From NCBI GenBank assembly GCA_003216295.1, contig QCJB01000005.1, positions 1 to 64,000 on the forward strand: a stretch of DNA of 64,000 nt, written 5' to 3'. Source of the stretch: Prochlorococcus sp. AG-402-P16. GTDB lineage: Bacteria > Cyanobacteriota > Cyanobacteriia > PCC-6307 > Cyanobiaceae. The notes beneath the pieces are model-generated. The model did not search any database. It had not been told where the DNA came from and saw nothing but the letters and a program-made list of their open reading frames with translations. A program made the translations under genes and the position numbers. The first letter of the stretch is position 1. Each line of letters begins with the position of its first letter. Of the stretch, positions 45,066-64,000 are shown in pieces.

Positions 45066-45620
45066 TTACCAACTTTTATATGATTCATCTTCCCAGTCAT
45101 TAGGTTTTAAATTATTGTCAGTAGAGTACTTATCAATATTTTCTTTATTATTAAGTTGATCATCATAATTAGTAAAAACTTTGTTTTCGTATTCGCTATA
45201 TTCTTTGTTCTCGTGATATTTTATATTCAAATCTTTGTTATTACTGATAATTCTAAAACTAGCATTAATTGTTGGTAATGGATCATTGATATCTCTTTCA
45301 AATAATGTATTTTCAGACAAAGGACTATCATAATTATCATTTTTAAATAACATATCATCATCAATTTTTTTTATGTCATTTTCAGACTTCTTTTTTAATT
45401 GTTGGTACCTGGGCCTTGTAAGAATATAATTAATTAAATATGATAATGCAAAACCTGAGGATGTAGAAATTGCTATATATGTTCCCAAAGATATTTTTGG
45501 TGTTTGCCAAATTAATAGTTTTAATCGAGTATCATTTTTTTGATTATTAAATGATAAAAAAAGAATTATTACTATGGTTGAAAAAATTGGTATTAATTTA
45601 AATTGATAATTAGATTTCAT
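45066..45620 (-). CDS. two-TM hypothetical protein
   Basis: Intact ORF, TM segments, Asn/Asp-rich tail. Confidence 0.6.
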   Translation of the reverse strand: MKSNYQFKLIPIFSTIVIILFLSFNNQKNDTRLKLLIWQTPKISLGTYIAISTSSGFALSYLINYILTRPRYQQLKKKSENDIKKIDDDMLFKNDNYDSPLSENTLFERDINDPLPTINASFRIISNNKDLNIKYHENKEYSEYENKVFTNYDDQLNNKENIDKYSTDNNLKPNDWEDESYKSW

Positions 45621-46225
45621 CTCTTAGGACCACTCCAACGTTCAATACCATCTAAATGTTCTCCAAGGGAATCAAAAAGTCTAACAACAATGAAATCAAT
45701 AATATCGTCTATTGACTTTGGATTTGTATACCAAGCTGGAATTGGCGGAACTATTAAAGCTCCTGCCTTAGCAATACGACTAATATTTTCTATATGAATT
45801 AAATTAAATGGTGATTCCCTTGGAGAAATAATTAAAGGTCTATTTTCCTTCAAGTGAACATCAGCACATCTTTCAATTAAATCAAGTGAAAAGCCTGAAG
45901 CTATTCTTCCTAGTGTTCCCATAGAGCAAGGAACAATAACCATACCCTTTGTCTTATGACTACCGCTAGCAATAGACGCTGAATGATCGTTCCAGCGATA
46001 ACAATTTAATTCTCCAGATTTAACCTCCAATCTTTCTCTCCAATAATGACTTTGTGAGCTTGGGTCAATAGGAATATTTATATTTCGTTCACTCTTCGCA
46101 ACTTCATATGCACCCCTACTCAATATTAAGTCTACTTTTTTATTACTTTTTAATAACAATTGGAGAGATCTTTCGCCAAGTTGTATGGCTGATGCTCCTG
46201 TAATTGCAAGAACTATACTTTTCAT
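45617..46225 (-). CDS. ubiX: UbiX-like flavin prenyltransferase
   Basis: LAITGASAIQLGERSL; VIVPCSMGTLGRIASG; RPLIISPRESPFNLIH. Confidence 0.92.
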   Translation of the reverse strand: MKSIVLAITGASAIQLGERSLQLLLKSNKKVDLILSRGAYEVAKSERNINIPIDPSSQSHYWRERLEVKSGELNCYRWNDHSASIASGSHKTKGMVIVPCSMGTLGRIASGFSLDLIERCADVHLKENRPLIISPRESPFNLIHIENISRIAKAGALIVPPIPAWYTNPKSIDDIIDFIVVRLFDSLGEHLDGIERWSGPKR

Positions 46226-48520
46226 TTATGAATCAATAGTTACTTCATTACTATTAAGAATATTAGATTCATCATTTTCTAAATCTACAAGTACTAGATC
46301 GATTTGATTTTTAAGTATGTCAACTTTTAAAACTTTTACTTTTATTTGCTGGGCTAATTGATAAGTCTTTTTATTTTTTCTTCCAACTAAAAGATTCTGT
46401 CTTGATCTGTATTCATACCAATCATCACCAAGAGTACTTACATGAACTAAACCTTCAGCGTTTAATTCTGTGATTTCTGCAAAAAAACCATAGCTTTGTA
46501 CACCTGTAATAACAGCAACAACTTCTTTACCTATTATTTTTTGTGCTTCTCTACCTTGAGCGATAGAAATTATATTATTTCTAAATAATTTTGATTTATT
46601 CCGAATATCGTTTAAATAAATAATTAGCTTTTCATCAGTATATTTCTGAATTGTCTCTCGAACTTTAAGGGTAAAAAGATCCCATTTAATTTGATTCCAA
46701 CTATTCATTCTCCCTAATTCTATGGAAGTTTTACTTCGACTTGTAAGCTTATTTTTACCATCAATTAAAAGTGAACTTAATATGAATTGATTGAATATAT
46801 TCCAATAGTTAAATGATGGACAACACCAAGGAGATTCAATTTTTTCTTGATCAACATGTGGTAGTTCTTTTTTTATCTCTTCATTAAAATTTGAAGTATT
46901 AATTTTTAAATGTATACCAGGTATAATATGTTTAGCTAGTTTTTGAAGAATTTTTTTCTCAGAACTTGCCTCAAATGATTTAATTAATTCATCCATCGTA
47001 GCAGTTCCGTCAATATTAATTGATATGTCCTTATCAATTGATATAGCTGACTTTGACAATTCATTTAATTGCCCCTGCTCCACCTCTTCATGTTGCTTAA
47101 ATATAAAAGGTAAGTTATATCCAATTAAATGCTTTGCAAGTATATTATTGGATAATCTAATAAATATATCTAGCACTGATTGTGGATCATCAATATCAAA
47201 CGACTTTGTCCAGCCATAATAATCTCTACTTGGAAATGCTAGCTGCATTTCACTTAATCTTTCTAAATTTGGTATCTCCTGATCTAACTTAATTGATCCA
47301 TTCGAACACTGATTTAGTAACCTTGAGGTATGAAGAATAGTATATATAACTTCTATGCTTTCTTTTATAGGTTTAATCGCAATTGGTGTCGATTTAGAAG
47401 TTACTTTCCTCTTGTTAATACATTCAAGGTGCTTGGGTGTTATTAAATATTTAGGTTTAATTTGGCTAAGGGAAAAATTCCAATCAGTTATTTCTCCATT
47501 ACTGCTTATGTCAAGCATTAATGTCAAGGCTTCACATACTTCATTTGGCTTGAATTCAGATACTTTTTTTAAGGATTCGCTTAAATAATCTAACCATTTG
47601 TTTCCCAAGCAAATAGCCTCACCTTTTGCCTTTAAATAATCATCTACTTTACCTCCGATATTTATTCTTTCAGCAACAGTTGGCGAGTGAATCCATATTC
47701 TTGTACCACCATCAAAAGGTTGGGCAAATAATGCAGGTAATGATGGTGAATTAATACTTTGCCAACTTTTGAATATTAATGATGGTTGCTCAGTAAAGTC
47801 TATTCTCCCTTTTGAAGGAATTTTCTTTGGTGAAATTCTTGGTGAATTGTGATTTTGTTGTATGTTATTTTTCGAGAGTAATATTTCTATATCTCCATTT
47901 GTACCAGCATTAAGTGGCAGTTCTCTTGTAATTGAGCCAACAGCACAATATTGGGCTAATGGATATTTTTCAATCCTAATTTCATAGATATAATCCTTAG
48001 TAGGTATTTTATCATCATTATTATTATTTTGTATATCTATAATTACAGGTATTCTGTCGTCTAATGGATAGGCTTTTAAGACAGAGTTTTGTTTGTCTAA
48101 CTCAATTTTAGCTAGTAATATATCATTATGTCTATTTAAAATACACAGAATAGAACCCTCTGGAGCCCTTCTCTTTTGACCCTCTTTATTGATTTTGACA
48201 ATCACTGTATCTCCATGCCAGGCATGATTTAGATTGCCTTCTCTAATATAGATATCTTCCCCGTGATCCTCTCTAACAACAAAACAATATCCCTTGCTGC
48301 TGCAACGAACCTTACCTTTTATATGATTATCTTCATTATTTAATATTAAATTTTCATTATCTATATATTTGATAACTTCTAATTTATTAAGTGCTTTTAA
48401 TGCAACTTCAAGTTTTAGTTTATCATTTTTCTTTGTTAATTTAAGTAATTTCTCTAGCTTATTAACATCAATTCCATTAACTTTATCGATATTATCGAGT
48501 ATGTTTGAAACAGAAGTCAT
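46226..48520 (-). CDS. RNase II/R (RNB)-family protein with degenerate catalytic core, intact cold-shock-like and S1 regions
   Basis: KGKVRCSSKGYCFVVREDHGEDIYIREGNLNHAWHGDTVIV; C-terminal S1 GKEVVAVITGVQSYGFFAEI..EGLVHVSTLGDDWYEYR. Confidence 0.85.
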   Translation of the reverse strand: MTSVSNILDNIDKVNGIDVNKLEKLLKLTKKNDKLKLEVALKALNKLEVIKYIDNENLILNNEDNHIKGKVRCSSKGYCFVVREDHGEDIYIREGNLNHAWHGDTVIVKINKEGQKRRAPEGSILCILNRHNDILLAKIELDKQNSVLKAYPLDDRIPVIIDIQNNNNDDKIPTKDYIYEIRIEKYPLAQYCAVGSITRELPLNAGTNGDIEILLSKNNIQQNHNSPRISPKKIPSKGRIDFTEQPSLIFKSWQSINSPSLPALFAQPFDGGTRIWIHSPTVAERINIGGKVDDYLKAKGEAICLGNKWLDYLSESLKKVSEFKPNEVCEALTLMLDISSNGEITDWNFSLSQIKPKYLITPKHLECINKRKVTSKSTPIAIKPIKESIEVIYTILHTSRLLNQCSNGSIKLDQEIPNLERLSEMQLAFPSRDYYGWTKSFDIDDPQSVLDIFIRLSNNILAKHLIGYNLPFIFKQHEEVEQGQLNELSKSAISIDKDISINIDGTATMDELIKSFEASSEKKILQKLAKHIIPGIHLKINTSNFNEEIKKELPHVDQEKIESPWCCPSFNYWNIFNQFILSSLLIDGKNKLTSRSKTSIELGRMNSWNQIKWDLFTLKVRETIQKYTDEKLIIYLNDIRNKSKLFRNNIISIAQGREAQKIIGKEVVAVITGVQSYGFFAEITELNAEGLVHVSTLGDDWYEYRSRQNLLVGRKNKKTYQLAQQIKVKVLKVDILKNQIDLVLVDLENDESNILNSNEVTIDS

Positions 48521-48612: not shown

Positions 48613-48903
48613 TTATTCATTAATATTTTCATTTAAGCTTTGAAGTAAAAGGTTGCCTCCAATATATAAGAATACTATTCCTGCGATCAATTTTAAAAAG
48701 AAAGCTGGAATTAGATTTGCTATAGATCCACCTGCTAAAGCACCTAATAATGTAGCTAATATAAGGGCTGTTGATGAACCCAGAAATACAGCTAATGGTT
48801 TATTTGTTGTACTACTCAATGTTATTGTGGTTAACTGAGTTTTATCACCCATTTCAGCTAAAAAAACAGTGAAAAATGTGGTAAATAGCAGTGTAAGTAT
48901 CAT
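48613..48903 (-). CDS. GDT1/UPF0016 half-protein A
   Basis: FLAEMGDKTQLTTITLSS motif. Confidence 0.9.
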   Translation of the reverse strand: MILTLLFTTFFTVFLAEMGDKTQLTTITLSSTTNKPLAVFLGSSTALILATLLGALAGGSIANLIPAFFLKLIAGIVFLYIGGNLLLQSLNENINE

Positions 48904-49262
48904 TGGCTTAATTGATGGCTCTTTAGAAAGTCAAAGAAACCTTCCATTGAAAGGAATACTCCCAAACTTATCATAATTATTCCTGCTCCTAGGGTAAAGC
49001 GTTTACGTGGAAAATTATTTGCTATCCACCTACCTATTATTACTCCAAGGATACTAGTTGAAATTAAGGCCAGTGCGGCCCCGAAAAAGATTATTAATGG
49101 TCTACCTGACTGAGCCGAGAGCATTAATGTTGCAATTTGGGTCTTATCTCCTAACTCGGCTAGAAAAATCGTACTAAAAGAAGAAATCAATACTCCATAA
49201 AAAGTTGAAGAATCGCTTGCATCAGTCAATACATCTTTTGTTTTTGACTTAGAATGACCCAT
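48900..49262 (-). CDS. GDT1/UPF0016 half-protein B
   Basis: FLAELGDKTQIATLMLSAQSG motif; overlaps half-protein A by 4 bp. Confidence 0.9.
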   Translation of the reverse strand: MGHSKSKTKDVLTDASDSSTFYGVLISSFSTIFLAELGDKTQIATLMLSAQSGRPLIIFFGAALALISTSILGVIIGRWIANNFPRKRFTLGAGIIMISLGVFLSMEGFFDFLKSHQLSQ

Positions 49263-63166: not shown

Positions 63167-64000
63167 CTAATTAAATTCAATTTTATCCATTACAGGACAA
63201 GGGTCGTGTAGTTCATTATCAGGATCTAACAAACCCCAATGTAATGATTTTTGAAAGTTAATAGCAGAAGAATCAATATTTAATTGATTTAATATTCTAA
63301 TACTTAAATTGGGTACAAAAGGATTTAGCAATATTGCAATAATTCGGCAAGATTCTAGTACAGAATATATATCAAGAGCAACAATATCTTTATTTGTTAT
63401 ATCTTTAATTAGCTTCCAGGGTGCACGATCATTTAGGTAAAGATTTGCACTATTAGCTAGATCTATAATTGCATTTGCTGCATTTTTAAAATTGCTATCC
63501 TTAAATGATTGCATATATTCATTTATTTTTATCTCTGATTGAACTTTAAGAGGAGATTCAGATAATAAAGAATTATCTATTGGAATTTTATCATTAAACC
63601 ATTTTTTAGACATTGTAATTGTTCTGTTTAACAAGTTACCAATGGTATTACTTAAATCACTATTAACAATATCCACAAATCTTCTCATTTGAAAATCACC
63701 ATCTTCACCAAATTCAATATCTCTCAAAAGATACCATCTCATCGCATCTATACCCCCATATTCCAAGAGTTCAATCGGGTCGAGCACATTACCTAATGAT
63801 TTACCCATTTTTTGCCCTTCTCGTGTTAAAAACCCGTGCCCAAAAACACTTCCAGGTGGTTTCATACCAGCAGAAAGTAGCATTGCTGGCCAATAAACTG
63901 CATGAAATCTGAGTATATCCTTGCCAATTACATGTACATTTGCAGGCCAATTACATAACGAGTCCTCGGTGAGTTCAGGAGAGTTTTGATCACGAAGAGA
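63167..64000 (-). CDS. metG: methionyl-tRNA synthetase, 3' part (runs off window end)
   Basis: GHGFLTREGQKMGKSLGNVLDP (KMSKS-equivalent KMGKS); frame stays open to position 64000 (SLRDQNSPELTEDSLCNWPANVHVIGKDILRFHAVYWPAML). Confidence 0.95.
   Translation of the reverse strand, partial: SLRDQNSPELTEDSLCNWPANVHVIGKDILRFHAVYWPAMLLSAGMKPPGSVFGHGFLTREGQKMGKSLGNVLDPIELLEYGGIDAMRWYLLRDIEFGEDGDFQMRRFVDIVNSDLSNTIGNLLNRTITMSKKWFNDKIPIDNSLLSESPLKVQSEIKINEYMQSFKDSNFKNAANAIIDLANSANLYLNDRAPWKLIKDITNKDIVALDIYSVLESCRIIAILLNPFVPNLSIRILNQLNIDSSAINFQKSLHWGLLDPDNELHDPCPVMDKIEFN

Follow-up and report, generated by a model that had tools for sequence, protein, structure and literature searches.

The RNB family of cyanobacteria includes a clade, Zam, that was found in every cyanobacterial genome searched and whose active site is degenerate; its sequence conservation sits mainly in the OB-fold domains and is low around that site (PMC9145284). 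Two cysteines in its first cold shock domain (CSD1), C73 and C79, are conserved, redox-active, and required in vivo, and the published phenotype of Zam concerns phycobilisomes (PMC9145284). In Synechococcus PCC 7002, Zam is dispensable and Rnb is essential, and the purified PCC 7002 Zam, which aggregated, showed neither nuclease activity nor binding to the RNAs tested (PMC9145284). The same study assigns Alr1240 of Anabaena to Zam, a protein that in its view has no working nuclease function (PMC9145284); a review reports Alr1240 to be an active RNase II that degrades unstructured RNA, binds RNase E 1:1, and stimulates it (PMC10989914). The literature leans to RNase E as the binding partner of Zam, rather than RNA.

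The window analyzed here is a stretch of 64,000 nucleotides from Prochlorococcus sp. AG-402-P16 (contig QCJB01000005.1, positions 1 to 64,000), and the 764-aa protein considered below is the picocyanobacterial version of this known family. A sequence-only reading had put the gene forward as an unusual find, a standing that it loses, as both the degeneracy of the site and the redox cysteines of Zam were already published in 2022 (PMC9145284). We identify the gene as zam because the positions of the cysteines, the placement in the tree, and the linkage of zam to ubiX agree. The gene, its domains, its cysteine pair, and its neighbors are as follows.

46226..48520, minus strand: zam ortholog, 764 aa, order CSD1-CSD2-RNB (pseudo)-S1, assigned from the reading frame, Pfam, the tree, and C73/C79 as in PCC 7002 Zam
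48146..48316, minus strand: CSD1/OB_RNB (aa 69-125), Pfam PF08206 at 68.3 bits, the slowest-evolving domain
48302..48304, minus strand: codon for Cys73, the N-terminal cysteine of the redox pair, C in 54/58 Cyanobiaceae and 33/33 other class Zam
48284..48286, minus strand: codon for Cys79, the C-terminal cysteine of the redox pair, C in 57/58 Cyanobiaceae and 32/33 other class Zam
47816..48145, minus strand: CSD2 and linker (aa 126-235), aligned to RNase R, mean rate 1.05
46766..47806, minus strand: RNB domain, predicted non-catalytic (aa 239-585), PF00773 at 99.5 bits
46295..46534, minus strand: S1 domain (aa 663-742), PF00575 at 38.7 bits, mean rate 0.40
45617..46225, minus strand: ubiX (UbiX-family flavin prenyltransferase, TIGR00421), next gene downstream of zam and a conserved neighbor
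48613..49262, minus strand: two GDT1-family cation/proton antiporter half-genes (PF01169) upstream of zam, conserved in Cyanobiaceae

The reading frame is intact and free of internal stops, both CSDs, the RNB domain, and S1 are all present, and the profile alignment to RNase R spans aa 2 to 753. With OB_RNB, S1, and CSD2 (34.4 bits) all above their Pfam cut-offs, the cold-shock-like N-terminal region and the S1 domain are indeed intact, as had been proposed. The RNB score, also above its cut-off, is low (99.5 bits, and 102 bits in the genome search), and TIGR02063, the NCBIfam RNase R equivalog, gives 168.6 bits, below its curated cut-off of 597.85. An AlphaFold2 model built on an alignment of Nostocales loci (~28% identical) was read for fold family and not for geometry because it is weak (mean pLDDT, 57; pTM, 0.44); its best fold matches are RNase R and RNase II structures, with Ssd1 (7am1) lower in the list.

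In a tree of 73 proteins, Rnb and Zam split from each other, and the window protein falls inside the Cyanobiaceae Zam clade (SH-aLRT, 100); the Escherichia coli rows of this tree sit on long branches. The gene order gdt1-gdt1-zam-ubiX is kept in Cyanobiaceae, and the zam-ubiX pairing recurs in most of the loci examined from the class; ubiX was not found beside zam in L218, L219, L222, L223, and L224. Downstream of ubiX lies a 184-aa open reading frame (45066-45620, minus strand) that has no convincing NCBIfam match (best E, 0.013) and was detected at this place in loci of the genus and in many of the remaining Cyanobiaceae loci, though not in every one. A zam match is present in 120 of 121 Cyanobiaceae genomes, spanning all 34 genera, and the gene is therefore kept for some function. 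None was found among viral contigs. The assemblies G009, G024, and G085 (88, 92, and 94% complete) have no zam match, possibly owing to assembly gaps, and the match at L017 (G013) contains one in-frame TAA that splits it near aa 388, reflecting either a pseudogene or an assembly error.

The sequence-only reading had centered on the missing Asp cluster that should precede the W+LWVHIADV segment. Positions 47661-47803 (minus strand) translate to IDFTEQPSLIFKSWQSINSPSLPALFAQPFDGGTRIWIHSPTVAERI, and the stretch quoted in that reading begins two residues before it. With E. coli K-12 RNase R and RNase II as numbering references, a MAFFT alignment equates D201, D207, D209, and D210 of RNase II with K251, P259, L261, and P262 of the window protein. 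An HH profile-profile alignment, independent of MAFFT, makes the same assignment, pairing SPSLPALFAQ with ARDFDDAVYCE and PWCCPSFNYWNIFN with HFTSPIRRYPDLTL, and the cluster is absent by both. The remnants of the site are as follows.

47735..47770, minus strand: former Mg site (aa 251-262), KSWQSINSPSLP, with the four Asp replaced by K251/P259/L261/P262 in both alignments
47666..47671, minus strand: E284-R285, invariant in 58/58 Cyanobiaceae Zam and not in other Zam
47609..47611, minus strand: C304, where RNase II has the clamp tyrosine Y253; C in 51/58 Cyanobiaceae
46790..46831, minus strand: PWCCPSFNYWNIFN (aa 564-577), where SPIRRY stood, with R500 lost in both alignments

The catalytic R500 is replaced by F570, and the SPIRRY motif reads CPSFNY. 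The picocyanobacterial orthologs agree: none of 58 Cyanobiaceae Zam sequences from 34 genera has Asp at 207, 209, or 210, which excludes a sequencing slip. We saw no substitute conserved Asp cluster in these 58 sequences either; the conserved acidic positions of the RNB domain (D241, E267, E284, D293, 424, 481, 487, 496, and 504) form no DxDD-like group. On these alignments, the Mg site is missing from the window protein, and we regard its identity as Zam, together with the loss of catalysis, as practically certain.

The same genome holds the second, intact RNB gene about which the sequence-only reading had asked. Rnb lies at G000:C5:65106-65969 (minus strand; 215 bits), 1.1 kb past the end of the window at 64000, and carries DDSQTFEIDDA and SPIRRY, keeping all four acids, Y253, and R500. 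Throughout the Rnb sample, D201, D209, D210, Y253, and R500 are present in 36/36 sequences, and position 207 is D or E. Because the catalytic residues are lost, the CSD and S1 domains are kept, and this intact gene is present, the window protein is very likely a pseudo-nuclease; the earlier proposal of an RNA-binding pseudo-nuclease thus very probably holds in its second part, whereas its first part is putative, purified PCC 7002 Zam, which aggregated, having bound none of the RNAs tested (PMC9145284).

We propose that picocyanobacterial Zam is an RNase R-derived pseudo-nuclease that would neither bind catalytic Mg nor hydrolyze RNA, whose CSD1 and S1 OB-folds may bind RNA and/or RNase E and tune RNA turnover, while bulk 3'-5' hydrolysis would fall to the separate, catalytically intact Rnb. 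As a whole, this explanation of Zam as a pseudo-nuclease regulator is one that we somewhat favor; for the specific role as a regulator of RNase E or RNA, drawn by analogy, we put the chances at about even. Mean site rates of 0.34 in CSD1 and 0.40 in S1 versus 1.15 in the RNB domain, which evolves about three times faster, locate the constraint in the OB-folds. The CSD1 residues R72, K76, Y/F78, and F80 are conserved across Cyanobiaceae Zam, a pattern suggestive of RNA binding without cleavage. C73 and C79 lie in the sequence RCSSKGYCF (family pattern, RCSSKG[FY]CF), and, judging from other cyanobacteria, the pair may couple Zam to the redox state of the cell where it is present. It is naturally broken in 5/58 Cyanobiaceae Zam, and redox control is therefore not universal; C73 is replaced by Ser in L088, L217, L222, and L223, and C79 is replaced by Ser in L189 and by Gly in L028.

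The partnership with RNase E would likewise carry over from other cyanobacteria. RNase E was not found in the source assembly; we reject a real loss, given that the assembly is 83% complete and the gene is present in 7/7 relatives. Only two phycobiliprotein genes, adjacent to each other (G000:C15:17373-18429), were found in this 83%-complete assembly, and the phycobilisome phenotype may therefore not carry over; this gene content, like the genome size and the AT-rich sequence, is in keeping with Prochlorococcus.

The alternative that survives best is that the former active site has been rebuilt in Cyanobiaceae into a conserved surface that would bind a protein, RNA, or a small ligand, so that the RNB domain would still have a direct role, in contrast to the weak conservation described for the active-site region of Zam as a whole; we consider this conceivable but on balance unlikely. 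The surface would comprise W253, P-x-L-P-A, E284-R285, C304, P564-W565, and N577-Q578. Positions 207, 209, and 210 are P in 56/58, L in 55/58, and P in 52/58 sequences over the 34 genera (exact P-x-L-P in 50/58), and they are accompanied by lineage-specific invariant residues; W253 is conserved in 91%, C304 in 88%, P564 and W565 in 93%, and N577 and Q578 in 58/58. The three former Asp sites have a mean rate of 0.33, a slowness that just 11 among the 343 RNB windows of the same pattern reach, and the stem leading to the clade is long (1.45 changes per site). However, about 3% of windows are then equally slow, which makes the support modest; averaged over its length, the RNB domain changes faster than either CSD1 or S1, as given above, and the conserved Pro, Leu, and Trp may merely stabilize the fold. 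There is thus modest evidence, from substitution patterns, that the ex-catalytic site was remodeled in Cyanobiaceae and not left drifting.

Beyond Cyanobiaceae, the site is in several states: in 33 Zam of other families, DD stands at 209/210 in 16, three of the four acids are kept in 6, and none has all four. When the site was left out of tree building, the resulting tree required five or more changes of the DD state, which shows that the Zam site was lost repeatedly, paralleling fungal Ssd1/Dis3L2 (PMC8097288).

A second alternative arises from the catalytic paralog. Although Rnb is ~600 to 700 aa long in most Cyanobiaceae genera, and in the one full-length example scanned HTH_RNase_II precedes RNB, that of the source genome (L001:1162-2445, minus strand) has 428 aa with RNB as its sole Pfam domain above the cut-off. 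The same bare architecture is found at 394 to 449 aa in the source genome, L099, L100, and L102, and similar shortening occurs in small-genome Cyanobiaceae (L098-L102). Comparison of these proteins indicates that the catalytic Rnb has shed its N-terminal domains in the source and related small genomes. The shortening invites a split-function reading for Prochlorococcus, in which the bare-RNB Rnb would supply catalysis and Zam the RNA-binding domains, with docking at the remodeled site of Zam; we judge such an arrangement quite improbable.

Still less credible is residual or alternative catalysis, in which Zam would hydrolyze RNA through acids drawn from elsewhere. In its favor, Alr1240 is reported to break down unstructured RNA (PMC10989914), and the 80 named Nostocales Zam carry two of the four acids at most; the 6/33 Zam with three acids also keep R500. 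Against it, the window protein lacks the four acids, the clamp tyrosine, R500, and any other conserved Asp cluster, and PCC 7002 Zam is inactive (PMC9145284). In 80 named Nostocales loci, a set that does not include PCC 7120, the source of Alr1240, Zam has E209 and N210 in 79/79 and R500 in 80/80; activity of Alr1240 would be surprising because every readable Nostocales Zam examined has this EN site. A decaying gene without function is the least plausible reading of all, for although the RNB domain evolves fast and a few genomes show the in-frame stop (L017) or missing match noted above, frames are intact in nearly the whole family, and family retention, conserved neighbors, and the strong constraint on CSD1 and S1 rule against it.

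The reading of Zam as a non-catalytic regulator concerns a protein that is near-universal in the picocyanobacterial family and that may frequently carry a ribonuclease annotation. To the parts of the published description of Zam that were accessible, our analysis makes modest additions: the P-x-L-P replacement, the EN and DD lineages, the broken cysteine pairs, and the shortened Rnb. The map of dead sites (P-x-L-P in Cyanobiaceae, EN in Nostocales, and DD elsewhere) offers test cases for weighing an inactive Zam against an active Alr1240, and the natural C73S or C79S Zam of Cyanobiaceae offer a way to probe the generality of the redox switch.

The closest known counterparts are the Zam of Synechocystis PCC 6803 and Synechococcus PCC 7002 (PMC9145284), which share with the window protein the domain order, the degenerate RNB site, identical C73/C79 positions, the clade, and a separate catalytic Rnb. 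In contrast to them, the window version has the Cyanobiaceae-wide P-x-L-P-A and CCP for SPIRRY, is only 25 to 30% identical to non-Cyanobiaceae Zam, and comes from a genome whose assembly yielded only two phycobiliprotein genes. E. coli RNase R and RNase II share the CSD-CSD-RNB-S1 architecture, RNase R being the best relative of solved structure, but the window protein has lost their four Mg-binding Asp, Y253, and R500. According to a review (PMC10989914), Anabaena Alr1240 is an RNB protein able to bind RNase E and to stimulate it, and PMC9145284 counts it as Zam; compared by description, it differs from the window Zam in being reported as catalytically active. Finally, the yeast pseudonuclease Ssd1 of the RNase II family (PMC8934651, PMC8097288) resembles Zam in its inactive and fast-evolving RNB domain, conserved CSDs, and repeated, independent loss of the site; unlike Zam, it is eukaryotic and derived from Dis3L2, and RNA binding, predicted for Zam, has been demonstrated for Ssd1 (PMC8934651, PMC8097288).
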